A stretch of 53,692 bases of DNA from Pectinatus brassicae. GTDB lineage: Bacteria > Bacillota > Negativicutes > Selenomonadales > Selenomonadaceae. Each line of letters opens with the position of its first letter. The first letter of the stretch is position 1. The notes beneath the pieces are model-generated. The model did not search any database. It was given only the letters and a program-made list of their open reading frames with translations, and was not told the origin of the DNA. Position numbers and translations under genes: made by a program. Location: positions 1-53,692 of the forward strand of contig NZ_JACHFH010000021.1 of the NCBI RefSeq assembly GCF_014201835.1, read 5' to 3'. Positions 2,894 to 18,422 of this stretch are shown here, piece after piece.

Positions 2894-3895
2894 TTATTGG
2901 GCATTTAAATATTGGCTGTCAATTATGTTAGCAGCGGTGATGTTTTTATCAATTAAATTAAGATCTTTCCAAAGTTTCGCGGCTATGCCGGTTACTTCGT
3001 AAAATTCACCGTTATTATTACTGCCAAAGTATTTCATATTTCCGGCTTTATCATAGAACTGAACATCATGTAGTTCTGCTTTTACGTTTTCTGGTTTTTC
3101 ACCAATTCGTTTAGCAATGATGGCTATAGCATCATCGGGATTGCTTTTCATATAATTAATAGCATCATACCAGCCGGCAACAATGGCTTTACCTACTTTA
3201 GGATGATCTTTCAAGTAAGATTTTTTCATAGCAAAAGTATCAACAATAACACCGGGACTGGCAGTGCTATCCATTAAGGTATGGCCAAATGGGGTTTTTT
3301 CGGCTTTGGAAAGCCATGGCTGCCAAGTAATAGCAGCATCTACTTTTCCTGCAACAAAGGCAGCACCAGCATCGCCAGCAGACATGTTTTGTACATCAAA
3401 ATCTTTGAGACTCATGCCTTTTTTCTGTAATAAATATTGAAACCAGAAATAATCAGCACCGCCGGTAGTATCTAAAGCAACTTTTTTTCCTTTAAGATCT
3501 TCCAGTGTTTTAAAATTCTTTTTAGCCACGATACCATCACCGCCAGCAGATGTATCAAGAGCTAATATCTGTACCAGGTCAATTCCAGCGGCAGCATTCA
3601 TAACCTGAGTAGAAATATCGGTTGAAACACCTTGTATACGGTCAGCAGCTAAGGCTGTTTTACTATCAGTTTTACTTTCAATAGCCTGGATTTTAACATC
3701 GGCACCATGTTTTTGAAAAAATCCTTTTTCTTCAGCAATATAAAGCGGCGCAAATCCTATCCAGGATGACTGTCCAATTATTACTTTGTCTGGGCCCGAT
3801 TTTTCGGCACTTTTAGTGCTACCACAGCCAGTAACAGCAATAAGCAGGGTTGAGACCATAGCAGCGGCCAATAATTTTTTCCATTTTAAATTCAT
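2894..3895 (-). CDS. ABC transporter substrate-binding lipoprotein (nitrate/sulfonate/taurine, NMT1/SsuA type)
   Basis: A 333-residue lipoprotein starting at MNLKWKKLL. A signal peptide leads to a lipobox (IAVTGC) with the lipidated cysteine at residue 24. The mature part has the NMT1/SsuA pattern: WIGFAPLYIAEEKGFF near the N-terminus, then DISTQVMNAAAG, KGKKVALDTTGG and AAITWQPWL. Such proteins bind small anions or heterocycles; the ligand cannot be told from sequence. The gene overlaps the 3' end of a truncated permease, so its original upstream region appears deleted. The ATG has only TTTGGAAT before it, a weak ribosome site, and no ATPase gene accompanies it. The protein looks intact but its transport system is not. 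Confidence 0.85.
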   Translation of the reverse strand: MNLKWKKLLAAAMVSTLLIAVTGCGSTKSAEKSGPDKVIIGQSSWIGFAPLYIAEEKGFFQKHGADVKIQAIESKTDSKTALAADRIQGVSTDISTQVMNAAAGIDLVQILALDTSAGGDGIVAKKNFKTLEDLKGKKVALDTTGGADYFWFQYLLQKKGMSLKDFDVQNMSAGDAGAAFVAGKVDAAITWQPWLSKAEKTPFGHTLMDSTASPGVIVDTFAMKKSYLKDHPKVGKAIVAGWYDAINYMKSNPDDAIAIIAKRIGEKPENVKAELHDVQFYDKAGNMKYFGSNNNGEFYEVTGIAAKLWKDLNLIDKNITAANIIDSQYLNAQ

Positions 3896-4217
3896 ATTCC
3901 AAAAAGGCAGACATTGGAGCATAGGTACCTATCATTAAACCTAATGGTAGTGCTACTGCTGCAGCAATTAAAAATCCAGCCATAACACGAAAGACGGTTA
4001 TACTAATATCTGCTATGAAGGTTCCCTGGGTAAATAAATCAACAGCTGTTTTTATAACGGCAGTTGGTGCTGGTAAAAAAAATGGATCTACTGAACCTGT
4101 CAATGTAAATAATGCCCAAATACTTAGAATAATAGCAAAGGCAATAAAAGCTATTGTAAAAATATATAAAGGCCTGATTTTTCCTTTTGGGGTGAATGAA
4201 TTAACTATAGTGCCCAT
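3819..4217 (-). pseudogene. Truncated ABC permease (SsuC/TauC type) fused by deletion to the binding-protein gene
   Basis: Residues 1-~109 match the start of a BPD_transp_1 permease of the sulfonate/taurine type: two hydrophobic segments (IFTIAFIAFAIILSIWALF and VFRVMAGFLIAAAVALPLGL) and the linker FFLPAPTAVIKTA. At about residue 110 (SAFLE) the permease sequence stops. The reading frame then runs out of phase into the binding-protein gene and ends at 3819. More than half of a normal ~250-residue permease, including the ATPase-coupling loop, is missing. The likely cause is a deletion with its junction near 3900-3912. The remnant keeps a perfect ribosome site (AGGAGGTAATC), a consensus promoter and a leader hairpin. 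Confidence 0.8.
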
Positions 4218-4483: not shown

Positions 4484-5212
4484 TTATACATATAATACTT
4501 TGGATAAAAAATCAGCTGTACGTTTATTTTGTGGTTTATTAAAAATTTGTTCTGGTCTGCCTTCTTCGACGATAGAGCCTTGATCCATAAAGAGAATTCT
4601 GTCACCTACCTCACGGGCAAATCCCATTTCATGGGTAACGATTACCATGGTCATACCAGCGGTAGCAAGCTTTTTCATTACATTTAATACTTCACCGACC
4701 ATTTCAGGATCTAAAGCTGAAGTGGGTTCATCGAATAGCATTACTTCGGGACTCATGGCTAAAGCCCGAGCAATAGCGACACGCTGCTGCTGACCGCCAG
4801 AGAGTGAATTAATACTTTTAGTTTCTTTTTCACTTAAGTCAACCATTTTTAATAGTTCAACAGCTTTATTATATGATTCTTTTTTGCTGGCTAATTTCAG
4901 CATTGTTGGTGCCAGCATAATATTTTCAACTATGTTCATATTGGGAAAAAGATTAAACTGCTGAAATACCATGCCCATTTTAGCCCGTATTTTATTGATA
5001 TTGGCAGCAGGTAGAGTTATGTTTTCACCGTCGAAAAATATTTGTCCTTTAGTCGGTGTTTCTAGTAGGTTCATACAGCGCAGCAAAGTCGATTTACCAG
5101 CACCTGATGGGCCGATTAGGACGACAACTTCCCCTTTTTTTACAGTTGTATTGATATTTTTTAAAATAGAATTTGATCCAAAGTCTTTATATAAATTTTT
5201 AATATCTATCAT
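4484..5212 (-). CDS. Polar amino-acid ABC transporter ATP-binding protein (GlnQ type)
   Basis: A 242-residue ABC ATPase. Walker A is GPSGAGKST at ~34-42, the signature is [15 protein letters not shown] at ~135, and Walker B is [14 protein letters not shown] at ~158, followed by the switch histidine in IVTHEMGFA. These features are typical of the GlnQ/HisP/ArtP family, which powers uptake of polar amino acids. The start [12 protein letters not shown] is chosen because AAGGAG lies upstream and an upstream extension would only duplicate permease sequence. It overlaps the permease gene by 14 bases, indicating translational coupling. It is the last gene of the M20-binding protein-permease-ATPase operon. 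Confidence 0.92.
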
Positions 5213-5888
5213 CCTGTTGCATTCTCCTTTCAGTCCAGCCAACAAAACGTCCTAGGGAAAATGTCAGGATAAGGTAAAATACCGCTGATACAATAAGTGG
5301 CTCTAAGCCGCGATAGGTAGCACCTTGTACAACCTTAGCAGTAAAAGTAAGTTCAGCAATACCCAGAACATATGCCATAGAGGAGCCTTTGATATCGGCA
5401 ACAAATTCGTTGCCGATGGCTGGCAGAATATTTTTTATGGCTTGAGGCATAATTACTTTGCGCATAGCCATTAAATGAGTAAGCCCTAAACTGCGGGCGG
5501 CTTCCATTTGACCTTTGGGAATTGATTGGATGCCAGCTCGAAATATTTCGGCAATATATACGCTGGAGTTAAGACCGATTGCGGCAATACTGGCAATTAT
5601 TGCTGCAAAGTTACTGGGTAATTCAGATGACATGGGCAGCATACCAACTAATACATAAGCAATGAGTACCTGTAAAAGCAGTGGTGTACCGCGCATTATT
5701 TCAATAAAGGCAAAGGCGATAACCCGCAGAAAATGAAAACCGCCGATTTTTATAGATGAGGCTTTCATAAAATATATAAGTAAGCCGACAATGACAGCTA
5801 TAAAGATAGCGGCAATAGAGATAAATATTGTCAGCTTTATTCCTGTAAAAAACATGGGAATATAGCGCATAACGACGCCAAAATCCAT
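5199..5888 (-). CDS. Polar amino-acid ABC transporter permease (GlnP/HisM type)
   Basis: A 229-residue integral membrane protein with about five hydrophobic segments. The permease signature includes [21 protein letters not shown] (an early loop typical of the His/Glu/Gln/Arg family) and the EAA-type loop [24 protein letters not shown]. It would form a homodimeric inner-membrane channel with the GlnQ-type ATPase encoded next. The ATG follows TAGGAAGTGATTTAA. It starts 36 bases after the binding-protein gene. The precise amino acid is not deducible; the nearby histidine-degradation genes make histidine or a derivative plausible. Confidence 0.92.
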
Positions 5889-5924
5889 TTAAATCACTTC
5901 CTATACAGTCATATTACTAGGTAA

Positions 5925-6779
5925 TTATTTTTTTTGTTGGGAGGCAGCAAGTGCACAGGCCTTATCAACAAATTTAGCAAATTCACCAGAATCTTTAAGA
6001 CGTTTAATCGTTTTATTCATCTGTTCTTTTAAGGCCGGTGAATCTTTTGGCAGAGCAACGGCTACACCCGGACTATCTAAAGATGAATCATCAATTTTAA
6101 TATCTTTGGCAATTACAAGATCGGGATTGCTGGCAATAGCCATTTTGCAGGTATCTTCAGCAGTTACAATAGCATCGATTTGTCCCTGGCTTAAAGACAA
6201 CATTAATGTACTCATGCTGTCAATACGGGAAAAATTGCCATCAGGCAGTAATTTGGACATTAAGTGATCCTGCAATGAGGATAGTTGTACACCAATTTTT
6301 TTACCTTTTAAATCATCAAATGTATTGAATTGGCTTAATTTTTCTTTAGTGGTTAAGACAACATTAGGAGAATGGTAATATGAATCGGTAAAATCAACAC
6401 TCTTACGGCGTTCTTTAGTAGCAGATAAGCCGGAAATTAATACATCAACTTGTTTTGACTGTAAAGTGGTCATTAAGGCATCAAAGGATAATTCTTTAAT
6501 TTCTAATTTTACGCCCATATCTTTAGCAATTTCACGTGCTACATCAGCATCAAAGCCGGCGATAGTATCTTTGCCGTCAACCATAGCATGAAATTCGTAT
6601 GGAGCAAAATCGGCATTCATACCGACTACAAGAGTACCTTTTTCTTTTATTTTTGCCAAACTATTATCGGTGCTTTTATCATTGGAGGCTGTAGTAGAGC
6701 CACAGCCGGAAACTATAGACATAAGCATAATAAGAGATAGTAAAGCAATAGTTAAAAAACTTTTTTTATTTTTTATCAT
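5925..6779 (-). CDS. Amino-acid ABC transporter substrate-binding lipoprotein
   Basis: A 284-residue SBP_bac_3 family protein. The signal peptide ends in lipobox IVSGC with Cys26 as the lipidation site. The mature protein shows the family pattern GTLVVGMNADFAPYEFHAM, then AGFDADVAREIAKDMGVKLE and KQVDVLISGLSATKERRKSVDFTDSYY. The arginine in TKERR and the aspartate near LSLSQGQIDAI are the usual alpha-amino-acid contacts. The ATG follows AAAGGAGTTTTCACC. It is the second gene of its operon, 13 bases after the M20 hydrolase gene. The ligand is an amino acid or amino-acid conjugate. Confidence 0.9.
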   Translation of the reverse strand: MIKNKKSFLTIALLSLIMLMSIVSGCGSTTASNDKSTDNSLAKIKEKGTLVVGMNADFAPYEFHAMVDGKDTIAGFDADVAREIAKDMGVKLEIKELSFDALMTTLQSKQVDVLISGLSATKERRKSVDFTDSYYHSPNVVLTTKEKLSQFNTFDDLKGKKIGVQLSSLQDHLMSKLLPDGNFSRIDSMSTLMLSLSQGQIDAIVTAEDTCKMAIASNPDLVIAKDIKIDDSSLDSPGVAVALPKDSPALKEQMNKTIKRLKDSGEFAKFVDKACALAASQQKK

Positions 6780-6792
6780 GGTGAAAACTCCT

Positions 6793-7983
6793 TTAGTTAT
6801 TTAAGTAGTCGAGAGAACTTTGAACAAATAGAGCTGTGCCGCGATATAATTGGGAATCATCGAGAACAAAGCGGGAACTGTGTGCCGGGTGAACAATATT
6901 ATCGGTATAGGCAGCTGGTGTATACAGCCGGAAAAAGCAACCAGGTGCTTTTTGATAGAAAAAGCCAGCATCTTCGCCGCCCATGCTTTCGTCAGTTATG
7001 ATTTTTAGTGTTTCTCCCGGCAATATTTTTTTAGCAGAAGCGATAACGGCGTCAACCATTTTATCATCATTCTTAGTTGGTGGATAACCATTAAGAAACT
7101 CTATTTCATAATCTGTCCGGGTAGCTTTGGTAACATATTTTACAATTTCTTCAATGCGTTTCATGACAAAATCGCGCACCTGTAAGTCTTGATTCCGAAT
7201 CGTGCCATGTATTTCTACAGTATCAGGAATAATATTTTCAGCACCGTCACCGCCTTTAATGGAGCCAAAAGTAATAACACAAGGCTTAAATGGGTCAATT
7301 TCCCGGCTTATAATGTATTGGATATTATTAATAACCAGTGTAGCAGCAGCAATCGGATCAATGCATAAATCAGGGGCAGAGCCATGACCGCTTTTACCGA
7401 TTATAGTTATATTTACTTGATCATCAGCAGCAGAGCTGTTGCCATATTTAAATAATATATCACCGGAATTAACGGATTGGCTGTAACCGCGTCGTTCAGT
7501 GTGCAGTGCCAGCATGGCATCAATATGAGGGTTTTCCATTACACCGTCTTCAATCATGACCTTAGCACCGCCAGGACCTTCTTCGGCTGGCTGGAAAATT
7601 AGCTTTACCTGTCCGGCAAGTTCTGCTTCATGTTTTTTTAATAAGGCAGCTGTTCCCAAGAGAATAGCTGTATGGGCATCATGACCGCAGGCATGCATAT
7701 TTTTATTGCTGGATTTGTATTCAAAATCAGAATCCTCTTGAATGCGCAAGCCATCCATATCAGCACGGATTCCGATGGTTTTACCAGTATTTTTACCTAA
7801 AACAGCAACGATGCCTGAATGGTTTTCATAAGTTTGATAGGAAATAGACATATTATCAAGGCATTTCTTTACGAACGCAGCTGTTTGGGGCAGTACCAGA
7901 CCGATTTCCGGTATTTGATGCAGCTGCCGCCGCCAGAAAATAATTTGACTGCTAAGTTTTTCCGCTTCAGTTAAGATATTCAT
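6793..7983 (-). CDS. M20 family amidohydrolase (N-acyl-amino-acid/IAA-conjugate hydrolase type)
   Basis: A 396-residue cytosolic metallohydrolase of the M20D group (hippurate/IAA-amino acid hydrolases). Metal-site motifs are GIRADMDGLRIQE, MHACGHDAHTAIL and PAEEGPGGAKVMIEDG, and the lid domain lies at about 180-290. It would remove an acyl group from an imported N-acyl amino acid. The start is the ATG at 7983, preceded by TGGAGTTGATCTT; an upstream in-frame codon lacks such a site. It heads the operon with an amino-acid ABC transporter, so the imported substrate is probably the conjugate it cleaves. A promoter and a terminator-like leader hairpin lie directly upstream. Confidence 0.88.
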   Translation of the reverse strand: MNILTEAEKLSSQIIFWRRQLHQIPEIGLVLPQTAAFVKKCLDNMSISYQTYENHSGIVAVLGKNTGKTIGIRADMDGLRIQEDSDFEYKSSNKNMHACGHDAHTAILLGTAALLKKHEAELAGQVKLIFQPAEEGPGGAKVMIEDGVMENPHIDAMLALHTERRGYSQSVNSGDILFKYGNSSAADDQVNITIIGKSGHGSAPDLCIDPIAAATLVINNIQYIISREIDPFKPCVITFGSIKGGDGAENIIPDTVEIHGTIRNQDLQVRDFVMKRIEEIVKYVTKATRTDYEIEFLNGYPPTKNDDKMVDAVIASAKKILPGETLKIITDESMGGEDAGFFYQKAPGCFFRLYTPAAYTDNIVHPAHSSRFVLDDSQLYRGTALFVQSSLDYLNN

Positions 7984-8023
7984 AAGATCAACTCCATAAT
8001 TTGTTGTAGATAATTGCAAAATA

Positions 8024-8068
8024 TAAAAAAAGACAAAGAAGCCTTGTAAAATAGACTTCTTTGTCTTT
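8024..8068 (-). promoter_or_regulatory. Leader attenuator-like hairpin of the M20-amino-acid ABC operon
   Basis: On the minus strand a perfect 13-bp stem (AAAGACAAAGAAG / CTTCTTTGTCTTT, 14-base loop) runs into seven T. It starts about 10 nt after the -10 box at 8079-8084, so transcripts should meet a strong terminator within their first 60 nt. It lacks the AGCAAYGG sequence of the other island leaders. Conditional antitermination is inferred; a stray upstream terminator is the alternative. Confidence 0.65.
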
Positions 8069-8078
8069 TATAAATGGT

Positions 8079-8194: not shown

Positions 8195-10207
8195 TTATTT
8201 TGCGAATGATTTATCGACAAGATTGCCAACTAGTTCATCATCAGCGACAAACGGAATTGTTATATGTCCTTTTCCAGCGTATTTTTTATTAAACTCTTCA
8301 GAAACTTCAATGGCATGTGGATTGCGAGCCCAGTTGCGGCGGGCAACACCGCCCATTACATCCCAAAGCATAGCTGATTTAATAATATTATCAACACGCT
8401 GACTGCCATCAAGAACAAGACCAAAACCGCCATTTATAGCCTTACCGATACCTGTGCCGCCGCCGTTATGCAGAGAAATGAGACTCATGCCGCGGGCAGC
8501 ATTGCCGGCATAGCATTGCACAGCCATATCAGCCATGACGTTACTGCCGTCTTTTATATTTGAGGTTTCACGGAAAGGTGAATCAGTGCCGCTGACATCA
8601 TGATGATCACGTCCCAGCATAATTGGTCCGGTTTTTCCTTCACGTACCAGTTCATTGAATTTAAGGGCGATATTTATGCGGCCTTCGGCATCCTGATAGA
8701 GAATACGGGCTTGGGTGCCGACAACCATTTGATTTTTTTCGGCATCGCGAATCCAATTGTAATTATCTCTGTCCTGATAGCGGCGATTAGGGTCAATTGA
8801 CCCCATTGCGGCTTTGTCAGTAGTAATTAAATCTTCATGTCTGCCGCTTAAGCATACCCAGCGGAACGGACCATAACCATAATCAAAAAGGTGTGGACCC
8901 ATTATATCTTCAACATATGATGGCAAAATAAAGCCGTCTTTTTCATCAATACCGTTTTTCGATAGTTCTTTAACACCAGCATCATAAACAGCTTTTAAAA
9001 ATGAATTACCATAATCGAAGAAATAGGTGCCGTTTTTGACACAGGCCATTATTAATTCATAGTGGCGGCGCAGGCTTTTATTGACAAGTTGTTCAAATGT
9101 TTCACGATCTTCAGCCAGCATGCGGGTACGCTCATTAAAGGAGATACCCTGTGGGCAGTAGCCACCGTCATAAGCAACATGGCAGGAAGTCTGGTCACTC
9201 ATCAAATCTATTTTTATATTGTTTTTAACGATGTATTCGAGTAAATCGACAATATTGCCATTATAGGCAATGGAGATTGTCGTTTTATCATTTATATGCT
9301 TATTGGCACAGGCAAAAACTTCATCAAGATCAGAGAAACATTCGCTGACCCAGCCCTGGTCAAGACGTGTTTTTATGCGGGAATAATCTACTTCAGCAAC
9401 GATGCCGACACCGTTGGCTATTTCTACAGCTTTAGGCTGTGCACCGCTCATGCCGCCCAGTCCCGAACTGACAAAAATATGACCACGTAAATCACCGTCA
9501 TTAGGAATGCCAAGATGCATGCGGCCGGCATTCAGTAAAGTATTATATGTACCATGCACAATGCCTTGCGGTCCGATGTACATCCAGCCGCCGGCTGTCA
9601 TCTGACCATAGTTGGCAACACCCATTTCTTCAGCGATTTCCCAGTCCTTTTCATTGTCGAACATACCTATCATTAAAGCGTTAGTATTTATTACGCGTGG
9701 AGCATCGGGCTTTGATGGGAATAAGCCCAGCGGCATGCCTGATTCAACAACTAAAGTCTGTTCGTTAGTCATTACTTCCAGATATTTTTTTATCAGGTGA
9801 TAACCAAGCCAATCATGGCAGACACTGCCGGTTTCACCATAGGTTACCAGTTCATAGGGATATAGTGCTACTTCAAAATCAAGATTGTTGTCAATCATAA
9901 CTTGAAAAGCTTTGCCTTCGATGCAGTTGCCTTTGTATTCATCGATAGGTTTGCCGTAGATGCGTCCTTGTGGGCGCCATCTGTAAGCATAAATGCGACC
10001 ATATGTCTTCAGTTCCTGTAAAAATTCTGGTGCTGCTTTTTCATGAAGTTCTTTGGGCAGATAGCGCAGAGCGTTTTTTAAGGCTATTTTTGTTTGATCC
10101 TTGCTTAGATGAAAGCCACGGCTTGGAGCGCGACGTATTCCTTCCTGAAATACAGGCATTTCAGGGAAAATATTATCAAGTTTTATATCAGTTATAATTT
10201 CAACCAT
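8195..10207 (-). CDS. hutU: Urocanate hydratase
   Basis: A 670-residue urocanase of the long form. It hydrates urocanate to 4-imidazolone-5-propionate using tightly bound NAD+ as electrophile. The NAD-binding core contains FVSSGLGGMSGAQPKAVEIA, and the active-site region reads SDQTSCHVAYDGGYCPQG, followed by IMLGRDHHDVSGTDSPFRET and ISLHNGGGTGIGKAINGGFG. The length matches the ~670-residue group rather than the ~555-residue Bacillus type. The ATG follows AAGGAGCATAAAA. It is the last gene of a seven-gene operon, 31 bases after hutI. No hutH (histidine ammonia-lyase) is found in the window. Confidence 0.96.
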   Translation of the reverse strand: MVEIITDIKLDNIFPEMPVFQEGIRRAPSRGFHLSKDQTKIALKNALRYLPKELHEKAAPEFLQELKTYGRIYAYRWRPQGRIYGKPIDEYKGNCIEGKAFQVMIDNNLDFEVALYPYELVTYGETGSVCHDWLGYHLIKKYLEVMTNEQTLVVESGMPLGLFPSKPDAPRVINTNALMIGMFDNEKDWEIAEEMGVANYGQMTAGGWMYIGPQGIVHGTYNTLLNAGRMHLGIPNDGDLRGHIFVSSGLGGMSGAQPKAVEIANGVGIVAEVDYSRIKTRLDQGWVSECFSDLDEVFACANKHINDKTTISIAYNGNIVDLLEYIVKNNIKIDLMSDQTSCHVAYDGGYCPQGISFNERTRMLAEDRETFEQLVNKSLRRHYELIMACVKNGTYFFDYGNSFLKAVYDAGVKELSKNGIDEKDGFILPSYVEDIMGPHLFDYGYGPFRWVCLSGRHEDLITTDKAAMGSIDPNRRYQDRDNYNWIRDAEKNQMVVGTQARILYQDAEGRINIALKFNELVREGKTGPIMLGRDHHDVSGTDSPFRETSNIKDGSNVMADMAVQCYAGNAARGMSLISLHNGGGTGIGKAINGGFGLVLDGSQRVDNIIKSAMLWDVMGGVARRNWARNPHAIEVSEEFNKKYAGKGHITIPFVADDELVGNLVDKSFAK

Positions 10208-10238
10208 TTTTATGCTCCTTGTAATAAAATTATGTTAT

Positions 10239-11483
10239 TTAAAATAATAATTGTCCGTCTTTAATAACATGTTCAATAATATTAATGCCGGTATGATAAA
10301 CTAAAAAACGATAATCGGGTTTTTCTAAAATTAAGATATCAGCTTTTTTGCCAGCCTCAATACTGCCGCATATTGCAGCTTCATCAATCGCCGCCGCAGC
10401 ATTTAAAGTTATAGCGGTGAGGGCTTCGTTTATAGTCATATGCATATTGATGACAGCTAGGGCTAAAATAAGTGCGGAGGAATAGGAATAACAGCTGCCG
10501 GGGTTAAAATCACTGGCTAGAGCTATAGCACAATTTTTATCAATCATTTTACGGGCGGGAGCAAAATCCTTGCGCATGCAAAAAGCTGTAAGTGGTAATA
10601 AAACAGCAATCGTTTTACTATTAGCTAGTTTATTTATATCAGAAGCTGATACGGCTAGTAAGTGGTCGGCACTGGTGGCATTTATTTTAGCAGCTAAGCC
10701 GCCGCCGCCGGTGGAGACTATTTCGTCAGCATGTATTTTGCTTTTTAGGCCAAGCTTTTGAGCTGCCAATAAAAGTTTTTCTGATTGCGCAATGCTGAAA
10801 ACACCCTGCTCACAAAATATATCACAAAAATCAGCTAGATTTTCTTTGGCAACTTCCGGTAAAACTTTTTTTATAGTAAAATCAATAAATCCATCACTGT
10901 CATTTTTATATTCAGGTGGTACCGCATGAGCACCAAGGAAAGTTGTTTTTAATGAAACAGGTAAATTGTCATGTAATTTTTTCATGGTTTTTAACATATT
11001 GATTTCAGTAGTAAAATCAAGGCCATAGCCACTTTTGCCTTCAATAGTCGTAAAGCCCTGTTTTATCATATTTTGAAGAGTTTTTTTGCCGGCATTATAA
11101 AGTTCATCACAACTCATAGCACGGGTTTTTTGCATGGTATTTACAATGCCGCCGCCTTGTCGTAGAAGATCAAGATAAGGGACACCTTCGAGGCGTGATA
11201 TAAATTCATCAGCGCGGGTGCCGCCGAAAAGAAAATGAGTATGTGGATCAGTAAAACCAGGGACAACGCATTTTCCTGAGGCATCAATAACATTTATATC
11301 GGAGCAGCTGCCAACACTGGCTAGTACTTCAGCTGTGGAACCAACTTTTCGGATAATATCATTTTCACAATATATAGCAGCATCGTTATATATTTTAATA
11401 TTATCCATAGCAGTTCCATGTATTGCTTTATTGCCTATAGGAGTTGCTATTTGACTGATATTTTGAATAAGAAGACGATTCAT
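10239..11483 (-). CDS. hutI: Imidazolonepropionase
   Basis: A 414-residue amidohydrolase that opens imidazolonepropionate to N-formimino-L-glutamate. The metal site begins DPHTHFLFGGTRADEF, and the family-specific GYGLDFTTEINMLKTMKKL, FLGAHAVPPEYK, KIHADE and ASDFNPGSCYS are all present. The start ATG follows CCAGGTGAACAATACTT. It sits 33 bases upstream of hutU and 33 downstream of the hydroxyacid dehydrogenase gene, all on the same strand. Pathway role is secure; it feeds the HutF-like and M20 enzymes encoded earlier in the operon. Confidence 0.96.
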   Translation of the reverse strand: MNRLLIQNISQIATPIGNKAIHGTAMDNIKIYNDAAIYCENDIIRKVGSTAEVLASVGSCSDINVIDASGKCVVPGFTDPHTHFLFGGTRADEFISRLEGVPYLDLLRQGGGIVNTMQKTRAMSCDELYNAGKKTLQNMIKQGFTTIEGKSGYGLDFTTEINMLKTMKKLHDNLPVSLKTTFLGAHAVPPEYKNDSDGFIDFTIKKVLPEVAKENLADFCDIFCEQGVFSIAQSEKLLLAAQKLGLKSKIHADEIVSTGGGGLAAKINATSADHLLAVSASDINKLANSKTIAVLLPLTAFCMRKDFAPARKMIDKNCAIALASDFNPGSCYSYSSALILALAVINMHMTINEALTAITLNAAAAIDEAAICGSIEAGKKADILILEKPDYRFLVYHTGINIIEHVIKDGQLLF

Positions 11484-11516
11484 AAGTATTGTTCACCTGG
11501 CCTTTAATAAAACTAA

Positions 11517-12488
11517 TTAATTTACTAAATCAGCAGGAATCTCACCACGCAGCATTTTTATAGCATTGTGGGCGGTACGTTCTTTTAGTTCTTTATATGA
11601 TTCCTGAGAAATATAACAAATATGTGGTGTTACTGTAATATTTTTTGTATGAAAGATTTTTTCCTTACCAGTAGGAGGTTCAATAGTGACTACATCGAGA
11701 AAGGCACCAGCAATTTTTTTGTTTTCGACAGCAGTAATTAAATCCTGTTCATTTATTATTTTACCGCGAGCAGTATTTATAATATATGCGGTTCTTTTCA
11801 TCAGAGAAAAAAATTTCTTTGTAATCATGTTAGTAGTATTATCATTACAAATTATATGAATACTAATAAAATCGGCTTGTTTAAAACCATCTGCCAAACT
11901 AACCGGAGTAACGTCAGCGGCCAGCATGGTGTTTTGGCTGACAAACGGATCATAGGCTAATACTTTTAGACCTAATTGCTGGGCTTTTTTTGCAACCTCG
12001 CGTCCGATTATGCCAAAGCCGGCAATAAATAATATTCGGGCAGAAACGCGCTGGGCAATATTGTTTTTAACAGCTTGGGCGCCCCAAAGGCCTTGCATAA
12101 TAGTATCAGTATAATTATTAAGCGGTTTGCAGGCACTATATATAGCAGCAGCGACATAGTCTGCTATATCTTCTGTGCAGTAGCCATGGACATTAGTAAC
12201 AGAAATACCTTTTGCCCTGGCAGCTTCGATATCTACTCGGTCATAGCCGCCACCATAAACAGCAATACCTTTGCAATATTGAAGTTTATTAATTACAGGA
12301 GCATCGATATTGACGTAAATCTGTGCCAAAATAATATCAGCATATTGACCAAATGCTTCTAAATCTTGTTTGTAATTATAATCAGAATAGTGGATTTCAC
12401 AACCAGGAAGTTCTTTTTGCAGTAAAGCTGTTTCGTATTCATATTCCGGCCATTCTTCATCAATTATCCAGATTTTAATGGGGTTCAT
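11517..12488 (-). CDS. D-2-hydroxyacid dehydrogenase (NAD-dependent)
   Basis: A 323-residue member of the D-isomer-specific 2-hydroxyacid dehydrogenase family. The nucleotide-binding motif is GFGIIGREVAKKAQQLGLKVLAYDP; catalytic residues are Arg in NTARGKIINE, Glu in VTIEPPTG and His in VTPHICYIS. It reduces a 2-oxoacid or oxidises a D-2-hydroxyacid; the sequence is closer to the CtBP/phosphoglycerate-dehydrogenase branch than to lactate dehydrogenases. The ATG follows TGGAGGCACTAT. It lies between the aconitase X small subunit and hutI in one operon, not a usual hut gene. That context suggests an imidazole hydroxyacid substrate (inference). Confidence 0.88.
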   Translation of the reverse strand: MNPIKIWIIDEEWPEYEYETALLQKELPGCEIHYSDYNYKQDLEAFGQYADIILAQIYVNIDAPVINKLQYCKGIAVYGGGYDRVDIEAARAKGISVTNVHGYCTEDIADYVAAAIYSACKPLNNYTDTIMQGLWGAQAVKNNIAQRVSARILFIAGFGIIGREVAKKAQQLGLKVLAYDPFVSQNTMLAADVTPVSLADGFKQADFISIHIICNDNTTNMITKKFFSLMKRTAYIINTARGKIINEQDLITAVENKKIAGAFLDVVTIEPPTGKEKIFHTKNITVTPHICYISQESYKELKERTAHNAIKMLRGEIPADLVN

Positions 12489-12503
12489 ATAGTGCCTCCA
12501 ATC

Positions 12504-12908
12504 TTATAGAACTGTTAAAAGACCATTATCAGCATCAAGTTCAACCATAGTGCCATTAGGCAGATCATCATAAAAAGTACTGTCCATTTTATTGACCATT
12601 GGTGCATCTAAAATAATGGCACTGGCAGCTAGGGTAGTATCGGCATTGATAACTATCATGCCTGCGGGATTCATGCTGGTCATTTTCAATTGATACATAC
12701 CATCAGCCTGAACAACAGAACTGCCTTTACCGTAAGGAAAGACTAATATTTTATTAGCAATGGACTGCTTATATAGACAATGTTCTTTTTCGATTACTTC
12801 GCCGGTTTTGGGATCAATCAAGTAAAAGCACAGACCATCTTTAGAAAATAATAGTTCACCTTTTACTTTACCACCAGAAATTTTATGACATTTATATTCT
12901 TTAGACAT
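12504..12908 (-). CDS. Aconitase X swivel-domain (small) subunit, DUF126
   Basis: A 134-residue protein corresponding to the swivelling domain of aconitase X enzymes, which in many organisms is a separate polypeptide. The motif GKGSSVV near the middle matches the GRGSS-type catalytic serine segment, and MIVINADTTLAASAIILDAP matches the conserved beta/alpha core. Together with the large subunit it should form a dehydratase. Characterised relatives act on cis-3-hydroxy-L-proline or mevalonate 5-phosphate. The start follows AAAGGAGAATACTAAT. The gap to the large-subunit gene is 1 base. Confidence 0.88.
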   Translation of the reverse strand: MSKEYKCHKISGGKVKGELLFSKDGLCFYLIDPKTGEVIEKEHCLYKQSIANKILVFPYGKGSSVVQADGMYQLKMTSMNPAGMIVINADTTLAASAIILDAPMVNKMDSTFYDDLPNGTMVELDADNGLLTVL

Positions 12909-12909
12909 A

Positions 12910-14109
12910 TTAGTATTCTCCTTTCAAGGCAGCTAAGACGCTATCTTTTAATGGCGCAATGACGAACTGCATATCGCGTCTTTTTGTATAATAGGCACAT
13001 TTAGGTGAATCCGTAATGCCTTTTTTGCCATAAAGAAATTTCCAGCATGGTTGATCCATACAGGTATCTTCGACAATTTCGCCGCCTGCAGCACGAATTA
13101 TATCCATATAGCCCATTTTTTTTGTAAGACTGCGGGTAAGGGAAGATGTCATTATGAAAAGAGGAACGGCAAGTTTTTTACCATTTACAAGATCAGCAAT
13201 AGTACTTATCTGATCAATGGTAAGATGCGGGCAGCCATAAAGGGCAAAATCAATTTTGCCGCTTGCATCGGAAATTTCTTCACGCATAGCTTTTAAATCA
13301 GCATTAGTAATGGTTACTTCTTTTGTAGGTTTTTTACCTTGGAAGGCATCTTCCATAGTAAGCGCTTCCGGTGTAAAACCAAGAATATGATATAAAGCGA
13401 CATTACCGCCGGTATTAAGCTGGGCGCCAAGATTCATCAAAGCTTCTTTACTGGGATTATGTATTCCTTCAAATACAGGAATATCGAAACCAATTTTTTG
13501 GGGGGCAAAATAGCCGAGCATCTGATAAGCAAAATCATCATCCATATCAGCTTCAACATGCACAAGCACCTGACCAGCCCGATTTTCCTTTAATAAAAAA
13601 CCATAGTAGGGAGTTACACCAGTAATGGCACTGCACAAAGCACTTTGGGCTGATTCACGATTGGTACGGGCCCCATATACAGAATTAACAAATGGTGTGG
13701 CACTTGATTCAGAAAAAGAAATAACTTCACCAAAATAAGGTATATTTTTTTCCAGATAAGGTGTGCAGTTATAGGTCATAATAGCACCTAATTTATTGTA
13801 AGCAGCATGAGTACGTTTAACGGTTTCTTCATCTTCTTTATCAATAGTAGTTATTTGTTGGAATTGTTCTAAATTAAAACTAGGATTTACAGTAGGACGT
13901 ACACGGCATTTGGCACCGCCGTTGACAAGCTTTTCAGCAAACCATAAATCTGCTTCCTGATTGCTGAGGGCAACATGGGTACGGCTGACCGGAACCATTT
14001 TAGGTGCATCATAGGCTTCACCAATAGCTGCTAATATTTTCATAGCCAGCTGGGTACCTTCGCCATAATCACCATTAAGCATTTTTTGTTCTTCATCTGT
14101 TAAATACAT
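12910..14109 (-). CDS. Aconitase X catalytic (large) subunit, DUF521
   Basis: A 399-residue aconitase X catalytic subunit. Visible family features are YLTDEEQKMLNGDYGEG at the N-terminus, the cysteine motif TYNCTPYL at about 115, FSESSATPFVNSVYGARTNRE, the second cysteine motif YGCPHLT near 293, and DTCMDQPCW near 355. These cysteines are candidates for the Fe-S cluster. It would catalyse loss of water from a hydroxy acid with the small subunit. Its chemistry here is unknown: no hydroxyproline genes are nearby, whereas hutI and hutU are. The ATG follows AGGGAGGCTTATC. Confidence 0.88.
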   Translation of the reverse strand: MYLTDEEQKMLNGDYGEGTQLAMKILAAIGEAYDAPKMVPVSRTHVALSNQEADLWFAEKLVNGGAKCRVRPTVNPSFNLEQFQQITTIDKEDEETVKRTHAAYNKLGAIMTYNCTPYLEKNIPYFGEVISFSESSATPFVNSVYGARTNRESAQSALCSAITGVTPYYGFLLKENRAGQVLVHVEADMDDDFAYQMLGYFAPQKIGFDIPVFEGIHNPSKEALMNLGAQLNTGGNVALYHILGFTPEALTMEDAFQGKKPTKEVTITNADLKAMREEISDASGKIDFALYGCPHLTIDQISTIADLVNGKKLAVPLFIMTSSLTRSLTKKMGYMDIIRAAGGEIVEDTCMDQPCWKFLYGKKGITDSPKCAYYTKRRDMQFVIAPLKDSVLAALKGEY

Positions 14110-14137
14110 GATAAGCCTCCCTGAGAATTTATGTGAA

Positions 14138-15475
14138 TTAATCTTTTTCCAAATGTTGCATGGTGGAATGCACTAAATCAAGTACACGTTTATCAGCTAT
14201 ATTGGTAAGGGTGTTATTGATTACAGTAGTCTGACCATTTACAGCTACCCGCTTAATGGCAGTTGGCTGCATAGAGTATATAAGATTAGGCAAAAATTGC
14301 TGGCCTTTTTGGGTTAAAGGCTGCATGGAAAAATCAGAGATTGATATACCGACAAAGTCAGCTTTACAGCCGGCGGCTATTTTTCCAATTGGCAGGTCTA
14401 AAACAATAGCACCATTACTGGTTCCCATTGTAAAGGCATCATTATAATTGACACAAAGGGCATCACAAGTCTTTGCTTTTTGCAGTATTGATACCATGCG
14501 CATTTCTTCAAATACGCTGATGCGGTTGTTCCCACAGGCCCCATCACTGCCAAGCGCAATGGGAACATTATTTTGTAAATAACATGGAATATCAGAAATA
14601 CCATCGGCTAAAAACATATTACTGGATGGGCAATAAATAAGGTGGGCCCCTTTTTCGCCCATTGTTTTTATTTCGTTTTCATTGAGCCAGACACCATGGA
14701 TTATTGACATATGCTTATCAACAACATTAAGACTGTCCAGATAGGCTAGTGGAGTTGTATGATGTTCTTTTTGCACTTGTTCAACTTCGAACATTTCTTC
14801 GGCAACATGAATATGATAGGGGGTATTATATTTTTTGGCCAGTTTATGACCTGCTTTTATCATATCAGGCGATGCCGCGTGCAGACTATGCGGGGCGGGA
14901 ATAACCTTAGTCATGCCGCCGGAATATTTTTTCATAAGTTTTTCGGTACGTTCTACAGCTGCGGCAACATTTTCTACATAACCAGCCGGCGCTCCATCCC
15001 AATCGTACATTGTACTGGCAAGGACGAGCCTGATACCGCAGTCTTTAGCAGCCTGCACAACAGCCTCATCACTTTCGCTGCCAAATTGATGCAGGTAGAA
15101 AAAATCTGATACAGTAGTAGCACCACATTTCATCATTTCAGTAAAGGCAAATAAAGCACCACTATAAATATCATCTAAACGCATACGCGGTGAATATTTA
15201 TATAATGAGTTATCGCGCCATTCGAGAAATGGTCTGTCGGCAGCTATGCCGCGCAGCAGACTTTGAAAGCTGTGATTATGGGCATTGACGCTGCCGGGAA
15301 CGATTACTAAATCGCCCCAGTTTTCTTTTGGGGAAGCAGAATATTTTTTTAATAATATATCAGGCGAAGCAATTTCCTTGATATCACCGCTATGAGTATC
15401 AATGGCTGCAGCAATATTTTCTTGCAGAGTATTATCGATAAAAAAGGCGGCGGCTTGTATGATTTTGATGGGCAT
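14138..15475 (-). CDS. Amidohydrolase, candidate N-formimino-L-glutamate deiminase (HutF-like)
   Basis: A 445-residue amidohydrolase-superfamily deaminase. Metal ligands are seen in NAHNHSFQ, HVAEE, HGVWL and GSDGACGNN. NAHNHSFQ with FLEWRD and DFFYLHQ resembles HutF, while LLRGIAADRP and the C-terminal half also resemble S-adenosylhomocysteine/guanine-type deaminases. Context favours HutF: hutI in the same operon makes formiminoglutamate, and the gene upstream encodes an amidase that could process the formylglutamate product. The start follows AAGGAGCTCAATTAATT and abuts the stop codon of that gene. The exact substrate is uncertain. Confidence 0.7.
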   Translation of the reverse strand: MPIKIIQAAAFFIDNTLQENIAAAIDTHSGDIKEIASPDILLKKYSASPKENWGDLVIVPGSVNAHNHSFQSLLRGIAADRPFLEWRDNSLYKYSPRMRLDDIYSGALFAFTEMMKCGATTVSDFFYLHQFGSESDEAVVQAAKDCGIRLVLASTMYDWDGAPAGYVENVAAAVERTEKLMKKYSGGMTKVIPAPHSLHAASPDMIKAGHKLAKKYNTPYHIHVAEEMFEVEQVQKEHHTTPLAYLDSLNVVDKHMSIIHGVWLNENEIKTMGEKGAHLIYCPSSNMFLADGISDIPCYLQNNVPIALGSDGACGNNRISVFEEMRMVSILQKAKTCDALCVNYNDAFTMGTSNGAIVLDLPIGKIAAGCKADFVGISISDFSMQPLTQKGQQFLPNLIYSMQPTAIKRVAVNGQTTVINNTLTNIADKRVLDLVHSTMQHLEKD

Positions 15476-15477
15476 AA

Positions 15478-16752
15478 TTAATTGAGCTCCTTGTCTAAAA
15501 TAAGTAAGGTATCAAGATAAACCTGAGCGGCAATCGCAATATCTTCAGGATGTGTATATTCCTGTGGACAATGGCTGAAGCCATCGACACTAGGGGCAAA
15601 CAACATGCCGGACTTTGTAAGACGGGCCATATTGGCAGCGTCATGACCGGCCATACTCACTAATTTTACAGCCGGTTGATTTTCAAGAACTGATGCCTGT
15701 AATATACTGTTTATTATGTTTTCAGACATAGGCATTTCTGATTGGTCCAGATTTAATTCACGTTGTATTTTAATATGACGTTCAGCACTTATTTGCTGAG
15801 TGAATTTTGTTAATAAAGTTAAAGCTTTCTTTTTTTCATCAGGATAGGCCGTACGCATATCAAGTGTCAGAACAACCTGTCCAGGAATGATATTTGATGA
15901 ATTAGGCTCGACGGTTATTTTGCCTACCGTTACAGATAGGTTGTTACATTCACGCATGATCCCTTCTATAGCTAGGCAGAGTTCAGCAGCACCACATAAA
16001 GCATCGCGTCTGTCGGCTGCTTCCGTTGTACCAGCATGGTTAGCTTCACCAATAATTGTAATGATTTCGCGATAAATACCGGTTATACAGCTAACGGCAG
16101 CAACAGACTGATTCTTTTTAAACAGCCGCTGTCCCTGCTCAATATGAAATTCCAGAAAAGCAGTAATGCGATCGCGGCTTAAGCGGGCTTCATTAATTTT
16201 TTCGCTATTGCCGCCAAGGTAATCAATTGTTGAGGCTAAGGTTTTTTTTGTATAACAATCGCTGAGTTTAAAGATATCATCTTTATTTAAGCGGCCACAT
16301 AAAACTTTACTGCCAAGGGTTGATACGGAATAAGTGTTGGGCTCTTCACCCGTAAAAGAAATAATTTCCAAGGGATGGCGTGTGATAATATTATTTTCTT
16401 TTATTGTTTGCATAGCTTCCATAGCGATTATTACTCCTAAAGCACCATCGTACTTTCCTCCATTAGGAACACTGTCATGATGTGAGCCAAATACGATAGG
16501 CTTATTTTCCAGATGTTTACCATAAGTTCCCCATAAATTAGCAATGGCATCAGTATAAACATTTAAATGCAGTTCCTTTTGCCATATATCTTTAAGCCAG
16601 CTACGGGCGGCTTTATCACCAGGTGTTCCCAGTTGCCTTTCAATGCCACCAGTTAATGGGTTTAGGCCTATTTGTGAAATTTTATTAAAACGGTTCATTA
16701 AACGTGTAGAATTGATCAATATGTTTTTACTTTCTAATTGTTTTTCGGTCAT
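15478..16752 (-). CDS. M20 hydrolase of the hydantoinase/carbamoylase family (candidate N-formylglutamate amidase)
   Basis: A 424-residue zinc-dependent N-carbamoyl-amino-acid hydrolase/allantoate amidohydrolase family enzyme. Metal and carboxylate-binding motifs are GSHHDSVPNGGKYDGALGV, SFTGEEPNTYS, EFHIEQGQRL and MAGHDAANMA. Family members hydrolyse N-carbamoyl or ureido amino acids. In this operon, with hutU, hutI and a HutF-like gene but no recognisable hutG, release of formate from N-formylglutamate is a reasonable proposal; N-carbamoyl-glutamate is the alternative. It is the first gene of the seven-gene operon, behind a leader hairpin. The ATG follows AGGAGATGATAGTTT. Confidence 0.82.
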   Translation of the reverse strand: MTEKQLESKNILINSTRLMNRFNKISQIGLNPLTGGIERQLGTPGDKAARSWLKDIWQKELHLNVYTDAIANLWGTYGKHLENKPIVFGSHHDSVPNGGKYDGALGVIIAMEAMQTIKENNIITRHPLEIISFTGEEPNTYSVSTLGSKVLCGRLNKDDIFKLSDCYTKKTLASTIDYLGGNSEKINEARLSRDRITAFLEFHIEQGQRLFKKNQSVAAVSCITGIYREIITIIGEANHAGTTEAADRRDALCGAAELCLAIEGIMRECNNLSVTVGKITVEPNSSNIIPGQVVLTLDMRTAYPDEKKKALTLLTKFTQQISAERHIKIQRELNLDQSEMPMSENIINSILQASVLENQPAVKLVSMAGHDAANMARLTKSGMLFAPSVDGFSHCPQEYTHPEDIAIAAQVYLDTLLILDKELN

Positions 16753-16864: not shown

Positions 16865-16907
16865 AAAAAAAGGCACTTTATCCTAAAAAGAATAAAGCAC
16901 CATTGCT
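16865..16907 (-). promoter_or_regulatory. Leader hairpin of the seven-gene operon, family AGCAAYGGYGCTT, copy 2
   Basis: Minus-strand sequence GAGAGCAATGGTGCTTT starts the element. A 12-bp stem (GGTGCTTTATTC / GGATAAAGTGCC, with G-U pairs) is followed by seven T. It lies ~110 bases before the first gene and 28 bases after the RpiR regulator gene, so it may also terminate that gene. Upstream, TTGACA (16933-16938) and TATAAT (16924-16929) occur but not at promoter spacing, so the start site is unclear. The match to copies 1 and 3 extends well beyond a generic terminator. Confidence 0.6.
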
Positions 16908-16934: not shown

Positions 16935-17795
16935 TCAATAGTAAACATTATTTTCTAATTCGGCCCTTTCAACAGCTTCCATACGCTCAGAAATAGCTGG
17001 TAGTTTTTGGGCGGCATCACGTAATAAAATATTTAGAAATATCATTGGTGTACTGTATATATCGAAAATTGAAGAAACTGTAAGAGGAACACATACAGCT
17101 TGTTTACTGCATTCAATAAGCGGTGAAAATTCACTGTCGGTGATGCCATAAATGTTAAAGCCCTTTTTATGCAGTCGTTGAGCTTTTTCGACTAAAAGAC
17201 GTGGATAACGGGGAAACATTACCGTTATAATATTTACTTTTTCCGGATTAAGTAATTCTATAGTATCCCATTGTGGTGAAGCGGGTGTGTAAGAGGAAAC
17301 ATCATTGCGCATTTTGTGCAGAATATAGGAAATATAGGGGACAATTGTTGCTGACATTCGTGCGGACAGCAATATTAAAGGTTTATTATCAGCTATTATA
17401 TTGACTAACTGCTGGTAAGCGGGAGTTTCGATAATAGTACCGAGTTTTTCCATATTGGCCAGCTCGTTATCAAATATAGAATGCATGTATTTGCCCTTAA
17501 TGCTGTGCTCTTCACTGAACTGTAATCTTTTAGGAGCAGTAAGTTCCTTGCTTACAATATTTTGTAGATTTTGCAGAAAATCATTATAGCCTCTGTACCC
17601 CAGTGCCATAAAAAAACGGGAAATACTGCCTTGGCTGACACCAACCTGTTCGGCTAGTTCATTGGTAGTCATAAAGACTATCTGCAAATAATTGTCATTT
17701 ATATATATGGCAATTTTTTTATATGTTGGTGAACTGTCGGCAACATATTTGAGCATAATTGTCAATTGTTCAAAAGTCTCGATATTTTTTCCCAT
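16935..17795 (-). CDS. MurR/RpiR family transcriptional regulator
   Basis: A 286-residue regulator. Residues 1-~78 form the RpiR-type helix-turn-helix, with recognition-helix region LAEQVGVSQGSISRFFMALGY. Residues ~120-260 form a SIS (sugar isomerase) effector domain beginning near NKPLILLSARMSAT. RpiR proteins normally sense phosphosugars, but members beside amino-acid and purine genes are known. It lies immediately upstream of the seven-gene operon and downstream of the broken hutD, all on the same strand, so it is the likely local regulator in place of HutC or HutP. The ATG follows AGAGGAAGTATAT. Confidence 0.88.
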   Translation of the reverse strand: MGKNIETFEQLTIMLKYVADSSPTYKKIAIYINDNYLQIVFMTTNELAEQVGVSQGSISRFFMALGYRGYNDFLQNLQNIVSKELTAPKRLQFSEEHSIKGKYMHSIFDNELANMEKLGTIIETPAYQQLVNIIADNKPLILLSARMSATIVPYISYILHKMRNDVSSYTPASPQWDTIELLNPEKVNIITVMFPRYPRLLVEKAQRLHKKGFNIYGITDSEFSPLIECSKQAVCVPLTVSSIFDIYSTPMIFLNILLRDAAQKLPAISERMEAVERAELENNVYY

Positions 17796-17854: not shown

Positions 17855-18422
17855 TTACCAATTTAATTTAAAAACAATCATTTTCGCGTCGAGACTGCTG
17901 CGTATTACCTTAACAGCAGAAAAATCTGTTAAATGCATAAGGTCACCAGCATTAATATTGCAGGTGTCTTCTTTATTTATTATATGGTAGCTGCCTGTAT
18001 ATACATATAAAAAACATTCATCGGTATCAGGATACAAATCAAACTGTCCAGCTTCATTAAAAAACAGCTCAGCTTTTTTATATGAGCCGTGTTTAAGCAT
18101 AACATTAAAATCCTGACAGCAGCCATAGCTGACAGTAGCGGAATCACCACTGAAATAATGAGCTTTCAATGGCTCAATCGTGATTTTTTCCTGTCCGTCG
18201 TGTTCAAGTTCAATTTGATTGTAAGGTCATTAAGATACGGTCAATATTTTTTAGTTTAGTAAAAGCAGATTTATCTGCCGTTACAGTTGCTGAACTTAAA
18301 CGCAGTTTAAAAGTTCTTTTTTTATAGTCAGCATCTTGGGGAGATATATATAATTGAGTCGTTTGTCCACCGCTCCAATCAGTTGTTGCAGTGTCAGTTG
18401 CTGATATTATATTTACAGCCAT
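17855..18422 (-). pseudogene. hutD: HutD-like cupin protein, broken by a frameshift
   Basis: Two adjacent reading frames together make a ~190-residue HutD-family protein. The first part (DWSGGQTTQLYIS, FKLRLSSATV, KLKNIDRILMTL) ends prematurely at 18210. The second part (QIELEHDGQ, then SGDSATVSYGCCQDFNVML, DECFLYVYTG) continues to 17855. The break lies in TTACAATCAAATTG, where an extra CAAT just before CAAA shifts the frame by four bases, consistent with a tandem duplication. HutD is a small cupin often found in hut operons. The start is the ATG at 18422, after AAGGTGG. A promoter and a copy of the leader hairpin lie upstream. Confidence 0.78.

Follow-up and report, generated by a model that had tools for sequence, protein, structure and literature searches.

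A hut operon with a two-subunit aconitase X in Pectinatus brassicae and its possible role in converting imidazolelactate to urocanate

The 53,692-nt stretch of DNA analyzed here (contig NZ_JACHFH010000021.1 of Pectinatus brassicae, hereafter the window) carries an operon in which histidine-utilization (hut) genes are combined with a two-subunit aconitase X (AcnX) and a D-2-hydroxyacid dehydrogenase (D2HDH). As an earlier note on this DNA had described, all seven of its genes have open reading frames, on the minus strand between positions 8195 and 16752. They are arranged in the order M20-family amidase, HutF-like amidohydrolase, AcnX large subunit, AcnX small subunit, D2HDH, hutI, and hutU, with intergenic gaps, 5' to 3' on the minus strand, of 2, 28, 1, 15, 33, and 31 nt, respectively. 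The hutU of the operon is the sole match in the genome of the strain. The operon is bracketed by the two longest terminator-like hairpins near it; in the scanned region, 18 such sites were found and 11.3 were expected, so that any single site is at most suggestive. No known RNA family was detected at the Rfam gathering thresholds between window positions 4000 and 20000. The coordinates are collected in Table 1.

Table 1. Features of the operon and its surroundings, in window coordinates, with the supporting matches.
Feature	Coordinates	Strand	Support
AcnX large subunit, predicted imidazolelactate dehydratase	12910..14109	-	PF04412, 441.6 bits
AcnX small (swivel) subunit	12504..12908	-	PF01989, 85.2 bits
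hutU, urocanate hydratase, 670-aa form	8195..10207	-	TIGR01228, 426.9 > 375 (equivalog cut-off)
hutI, imidazolonepropionase	10239..11483	-	TIGR01224, 448 > 298 (equivalog cut-off)
D2HDH, proposed imidazolepyruvate -> D-imidazolelactate	11517..12488	-	PF02826 and PF00389
HutF-like amidohydrolase, proposed formiminoglutamate deiminase	14138..15475	-	PF01979
M20-family hydantoinase/carbamoylase-type amidase, proposed N-formyl-L-glutamate amidohydrolase	15478..16752	-	TIGR01879, 311.6 > 204
Terminator-like hairpin upstream of the operon	16872..16901	-	13 pairs and T run
Terminator-like hairpin downstream of hutU	8028..8069	-	17 pairs and T run
MurR/RpiR-type regulator	16935..17795	-	PF01418 and PF01380
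hutD, in two frames in this assembly	17858..18422	-	tblastn, two pieces, each in its own frame; PF05962 on the downstream one
NMT1-type substrate-binding protein, whole	2894..3922	-	81% to L033 protein

In an alignment with TkAcnX and AtAcnX, the window AcnX displays the features of a Type-II enzyme, that is, the cluster cysteines and the catalytic Ser, Glu, Lys, and Tyr. The predicted cluster ligands of the large subunit are C115, C293, and C350, and E134, K370, and Y374 appear conserved; the small subunit contains the putative catalytic Ser63 and, as a clade-specific feature, one inserted residue (SSVVQADG). All of C110, C283, C342, Glu129, Lys361, Tyr365, and Ser62 of TkAcnX have window equivalents. 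The same alignment revealed no equivalents of the residues that, according to the accessible part of PMC8184944, bind either the hydroxyproline ring nitrogen or the phosphate group of mevalonate phosphate. The columns of Asp203 and Thr72 of AtAcnX are occupied by Ala47 and Val, respectively (the AtAcnX row, 7d2r_A, is an engineered S449C/C510V mutant; the wild type has Ser449 and Cys510, and these two columns are unaffected), and the phosphate loop of the mevalonate-5-phosphate dehydratase (G48-V49-S50-N53) is absent, the window loop being shortened to HVALSNQEAD. In addition, the window AcnX did not reach the cut-off of the NCBIfam model for the cis-3-hydroxy-L-proline (C3LHyp) dehydratase (NF051439; 222 vs. 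700 bits). An AlphaFold run on a 12-row AcnX alignment gave a poor model (mean predicted local distance difference test score, pLDDT, of 60.1), which was not used.

A contig scan found the same AcnX in two Propionispira species, a Megamonas metagenome-assembled genome (MAG), Candidatus Dichloromethanomonas, and several uncultured Selenomonadaceae/Veillonellaceae-type MAGs. In a 39-row maximum-likelihood tree, the clade of the window AcnX comprised 24 rows and had a support of 100/100 and a stem branch of 0.99 changes per site (L and G numbers denote loci and genomes; the clade includes L083, and L092 and L094 were too short and left out). Across the clade, the landmark residues of both known AcnX activities are absent, whereas the three cluster cysteines and the Ser, Glu, Lys, and Tyr are kept. 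The large subunit is marked by the loop HVAxSNQ(E/D)AD in 23 of the 24 rows (HVSLSAQEAD in L083) and by D352 followed by Gln (Glu in L083), and the small subunit is marked by SS(V/S)V(Q/M)xDG. These clade-typical residues are candidates for imidazole recognition.

The neighborhoods of AcnX were compared within 10 kb by tblastn (E <= 1e-15; the queries were proteins of the window or of relatives) at 23 clade loci and 14 distant AcnX loci. The clade set leaves out L050 and the duplicates of counted genomes (L043, L044, L046, and L049); L083 and L094 were counted apart as lyase-associated, and G268 is apparently the same genome as G043 (identical hutH coordinates). The distant set comprises 9/9 class-sample loci and 5 of 25 lower-scoring phylum-sample genomes, and six of its 14 stretches end 5.6 kb or less from AcnX on one or both sides. 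hutU or hutI was found at 18/23 clade loci as compared to 0/14 distant loci, several of which are on short contigs. L047 makes a nineteenth hut-like locus, with HutF-like and M20 genes before the stretch ends. AcnX is embedded in the hut operon of the window and of many relatives, with the HutF-like gene to one side of it and hutI/hutU to the other; at L096 and L097 it adjoins hutU.

A gene for D2HDH or a LarA-type nickel-pincer racemase was likewise found at 18/23 clade loci and 0/14 distant loci (several of them short stretches). D2HDH occurs at 11/23 clade loci, at 10 of them within 3.4 kb of AcnX (window included), and LarA-type genes occur at 8/23. On the AcnX tree, the D2HDH/LarA state changes at least three times, or five times if "neither" is counted as a state (G017 is represented by L038 in the tree and by L051 in the neighborhoods, and carries the tree label LarA although a D2HDH lies 7.5 kb away). 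The LarA neighbors at L080 and L038 exceed the cut-off of nickel-pincer group 22 (NPN group 22, NF052515; 496.6 and 480.9 > 400); those at L052, L078, and L079 match Lar_N, the first two falling below the subfamily cut-offs tested. LarC, considered as a marker of LarA-dependent genomes, was uninformative. Two Pectinatus loci in genomes with no hutH match (L035 and L036) have neither D2HDH nor LarA within 10 kb. Given this and the LarA-type gene of other lineages, the constant element is AcnX with hutU and hutI.

The earlier note had built on the absence of hutH from the window. This absence stands for the window itself but not as a premise, since a genome-wide search found one intact hutH on another contig of the same genome (C18; 702 bits vs. 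a cut-off of 539). The argument from a missing hutH is therefore limited to the relatives. No hutH match (E <= 0.001) was found in 8/23 clade genomes, namely G001, G003, and G004 (Pectinatus, 99–100% complete, with the operon present), both Propionispira genomes, Dichloromethanomonas, and the MAG with L053 (the completeness of these four is unreported), and G073. On the AcnX gene tree, which is not a species tree, hutH presence changes at least six times. L093:7963-9957 encodes a protein of 664 aa that resembles histidine ammonia-lyase and has Ala-Thr-Gly at the motif site as well as a large mid-protein insertion; no hut gene was recognized in that 17-kb stretch.

Of 300 genomes of the class, 63 carry hutU, 60 give a hutH match, and 14 carry the clade AcnX. 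All 14 AcnX-clade genomes have hutU, as compared to 49/286 of the others. hutU without a hutH match was seen in 4/300 genomes, all of them carriers of the AcnX clade. Counted among hutU genomes, this corresponds to 4/14 clade vs. 0/49 other genomes, with a Fisher p of 0.0017 that is uncorrected for kinship and, given the bias toward one genus described below, indicative only.

From this gene context, we propose that the operon catabolizes imidazolelactate, with AcnX dehydrating the D form to urocanate and D2HDH or LarA supplying that enantiomer; we put the probability of this reading at roughly 60%. That an iron-sulfur AcnX makes urocanate from imidazolelactate, in an anaerobic salvage route needing no ammonia-lyase of the 4-methylideneimidazole-5-one (MIO) type, we hold to be slightly better than an even bet. 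Judged by its cysteines, the AcnX heterodimer is a hydro-lyase of the [4Fe-4S] type; it would convert imidazolelactate, probably the D form, into urocanate and water. HutU and HutI would then take urocanate to formiminoglutamate, from which the HutF-like deiminase and the M20 amidase may release glutamate, formate, and ammonia. As optional feeders, D2HDH could reduce imidazolepyruvate to D-imidazolelactate and, in other lineages, the LarA-type racemase could convert the L into the D form; the input is more likely imidazolelactate itself. The substrate, stereochemistry, and direction of the AcnX step, as well as the HutF and amidase steps, are what we infer from the genes around them.

The proposal is supported by the hut linkage, by the pairing with two 2-hydroxyacid families, and by the presence of this AcnX in every relative that has hutU and gives no hutH match. 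Because the D2HDH and LarA families are unrelated and 2-hydroxyacid chemistry is common to both, their repeated pairing with AcnX counts in its favor. In addition, L083 encodes, directly after the AcnX large subunit, a 646-aa protein in which the AcnX small subunit is fused to an aromatic amino acid lyase domain (L083:10942-12882); we count it in favor as well, despite GSVGEADI in place of the usual Ala-Ser-Gly motif. At L094, the small subunit and the lyase are separate genes followed by two lyase paralogues, and all three lyases are without Ala-Ser-Gly. Three MAG loci (L051, L047, and L053) have an indolepyruvate:ferredoxin-oxidoreductase-alpha-like gene, as one would expect near arylpyruvate metabolism; the alpha and beta subunits at L051 are below their cut-offs (554 vs. 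651 and 121 vs. 206), as are the CoA-ligase-like genes at L051 and L053 with respect to their equivalog cut-offs.

The assignments in the lower part of the pathway differ in strength. The identities that the earlier note gave to hutU, hutI, the two-subunit AcnX, and D2HDH are borne out by model cut-offs or Pfam matches, whereas its HutF and amidase names come from context. The best Protein Data Bank (PDB) matches of the HutF-like protein are 3lnp (amidohydrolase) and 4f0r (MTA/SAH deaminase), and that of the M20 amidase is the L-carbamoylase 3n5f. The amidase scored 339 < 520 with the model of the ErtE N-carbamyl-L-Glu amidohydrolase, and D2HDH reached no NCBIfam equivalog cut-off (best PGDH, 187 vs. 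454). An ergothioneine route, suggested by the similarity of the M20 amidase to ErtE and of HutU to thiourocanate hydratases, was considered and rejected, both proteins being far below those cut-offs. L052 and L097 presumably carry FTCD-like and FchA-like genes, and neither a HutF-like nor an M20 gene was found within 10 kb of their AcnX, which fits the roles given to these two enzymes. The AcnX-free hut cluster L042, in which we take a HutF-like and an FTCD-like gene to stand together, counters a strict alternation.

Several observations weigh against the imidazolelactate proposal. The intact hutH of the strain itself is one; in addition, a hutH match is present in 15/23 clade genomes, three of them below the cut-off (G057; G002, a Pectinatus in which the match is split over two contig ends; and G048, whose lyase has Ala-Thr-Gly at the motif site and a long insertion), so that the proposed route would be supplementary in many cases. 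The strain of the window may depend in part on its hutH; relatives without the gene could not. Three of the four class genomes with hutU and no hutH match belong to one genus, and hutU is found, unlinked, in 4/8 class genomes that have only a distant AcnX. No hut gene lies near AcnX at 4/23 clade loci (one at a contig edge), neither D2HDH nor LarA at 5/23 (one at a contig edge), L051 has both, and LarC is present in 23/23 clade genomes. The HutF-like protein is under the HutF cut-off (TIGR02022; 176 vs. 413) and the amidase is placed to the level of its subfamily, so both names depend on context. Damage in the window genome affects both hutD and the transporter that accompanies the operon in relatives; the enzyme genes of the operon are themselves intact. 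The claim of the earlier note that AcnX acts on imidazolelactate gained comparative support, from the hut linkage, the 2-hydroxyacid pairing, and the carriers free of a hutH match; two of its parts need revision, in view of the hutH of the window genome and the inconstancy of D2HDH.

The chemistry also weighs against it. According to the accessible part of PMC8184944, characterized AcnX enzymes eliminate the hydroxyl group at the beta position together with the alpha proton, next to the carboxylate. Imidazolelactate offers an alpha-hydroxyl and a beta proton activated solely by the imidazole, so the orientation of the elimination would be new. Aconitase handles an alpha-hydroxy acid on its isocitrate side, with a second carboxylate activating the proton. 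The reaction does not appear to be barred, since histidine ammonia-lyase removes the same beta proton.

In an alternative reading, AcnX dehydrates a beta-hydroxy imidazole compound, forming for instance urocanate from 3-hydroxy-3-(imidazolyl)propionate or imidazolepyruvate from beta-hydroxyhistidine. This would keep the C2-H/C3-OH elimination described for cis-3-hydroxyproline and mevalonate phosphate in the accessible part of PMC8184944. It could also accommodate L097, where genes that we take to be RidA-like and D-threonine-aldolase-like lie near AcnX. However, it leaves the repeated D2HDH/LarA pairing unexplained, as both act on alpha-keto or alpha-hydroxy acids, and beta-hydroxyhistidine would give no urocanate in genomes lacking hutH; we consider it improbable. 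Slightly less improbable, and still unlikely, is that the hut genes use imported urocanate (or histidine via hutH) while AcnX and D2HDH/LarA act on another 2-hydroxyacid, such as 2-hydroxyglutarate derived from glutamate. At L081 and L082, where no hut genes are present, the clade AcnX is accompanied by D2HDH and a TRAP transporter; this and the frequent hutH matches speak for this reading. It does not account for the position of AcnX within the hut operon or for the hutU found in every clade genome of the class sample even when unlinked, and at L052 downstream genes, presumably of the glutamate-mutase type, would make a 2-hydroxyglutarate route unneeded.

That AcnX is a C3LHyp or mevalonate-5-phosphate dehydratase merely located in the operon is very unlikely. 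It belongs to the same family, and these two are the characterized AcnX activities in the accessible part of PMC8184944, but AtAcnX D203 and T72 and the TkAcnX phosphate loop are absent, the score with the C3LHyp dehydratase model is low, and the hut linkage of this clade is seen at none of the 14 distant loci.

Pectinatus is a beer-spoilage bacterium, and imidazolelactate is a fermentation product; the compound might be linked to the fermented niches of the genus. In older work, imidazolyl-lactate is said to be catabolized by oxidation back to histidine. In the open-licence PubMed Central (PMC) literature, no imidazolelactate dehydratase was found among the matches listed, nor was a link between AcnX and hut among the best 20 of 110 matches. 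Imidazolelactate itself is present in nature: cervical cell models colonized with Lactobacillus crispatus contained more imidazolelactate (q values of 0.1 and 0.3; accessible part of PMC8669023).

Outside the operon, homologues of the MurR/RpiR-type regulator lie within 10 kb of AcnX at 12/22 other clade loci. hutD is in a single frame in relatives and in two frames in the window, which could be an assembly error. An NMT1-type ATP-binding cassette (ABC) transporter accompanies the operon in relatives; the window keeps the binding protein and a piece of the permease (aa 1-108, at 4217-3894), and no close homologue of the ATPase was found in it (best match 40%, an amino-acid-type ATPase). Behind the operon terminator, window positions 4484-8019 carry what we take to be an amino-acid-type ABC transporter with an M20-family amidohydrolase; none of these genes lies beside hutU at four other Pectinatus loci. 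At L038, an ATPase 49% identical to that of this amino-acid-type transporter lies downstream of hutH. At L096 and L097, AcnX presumably also adjoins a glycine-betaine-type ABC transporter, with an MttB-like gene downstream, joined at L096 by a glutamate-mutase-like gene, hinting at a betaine, e.g. hercynine, as a further substrate. A histidinol-dehydrogenase-family gene directly follows AcnX at L095:1744-3000 (G414; 489.9 > 243.8). An AcnX with 74% identity ends a short contig (L050:5094-6221) of a MAG labelled Propionibacterium, possibly as contamination; no hutH match was found in that genome.

In textbook accounts, it is histidine ammonia-lyase that converts histidine to urocanate. If the proposal is correct, urocanate could be formed without an MIO ammonia-lyase. 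This would explain the genomes that keep hutU and hutI without hutH and would amount to anaerobic salvage of a compound that is elsewhere described as a final product of histidine degradation. It would also be a dehydration of an alpha-hydroxy acid within the aconitase superfamily in which nothing but an aromatic ring activates the leaving proton. An uncharacterized AcnX subclass would gain a function and LarA group 22 a suggested substrate. In the accessible part of PMC8184944, the function of AcnX types IIc-IIf is left open. The name of the group 22 model (NF052515) gives no substrate, and term searches of the accessible parts of PMC11770544 and PMC7583248 on LarA did not find imidazole, urocanate, or aconitase.

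Compared to the known systems, the window AcnX is closest in build to TkAcnX, the Type-II mevalonate-5-phosphate dehydratase (7CNR/7CNS), with which it shares two subunits, the catalytic Ser, Glu, Lys, and Tyr, and the cysteines C110/C283/C342, corresponding to C115/C293/C350. It differs from TkAcnX in the shorter loop at the position of the phosphate-binding residues, the one-residue insertion in the small subunit, D352-Q353, and the hut context. With Type-I AcnX (AtAcnX), it shares the family, the catalytic Ser/Glu/Lys/Tyr, and the cysteines equivalent to C273 and C508, whereas it is without Asp203 and Thr72, has Asp in place of C510, and is divided into two polypeptides. The classical hut pathway (HutH, HutU, HutI, and then HutF/HutG, HutG, or FTCD) has hutU and hutI in common with the operon, and the fate of formiminoglutamate is probably the same. 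In contrast to the classical pathway, entry would proceed through AcnX instead of, or beside, histidine ammonia-lyase, with an M20 amidase in the proposed role of HutG; the new entry to the hut pathway and the role of this AcnX subclass are what we propose here.

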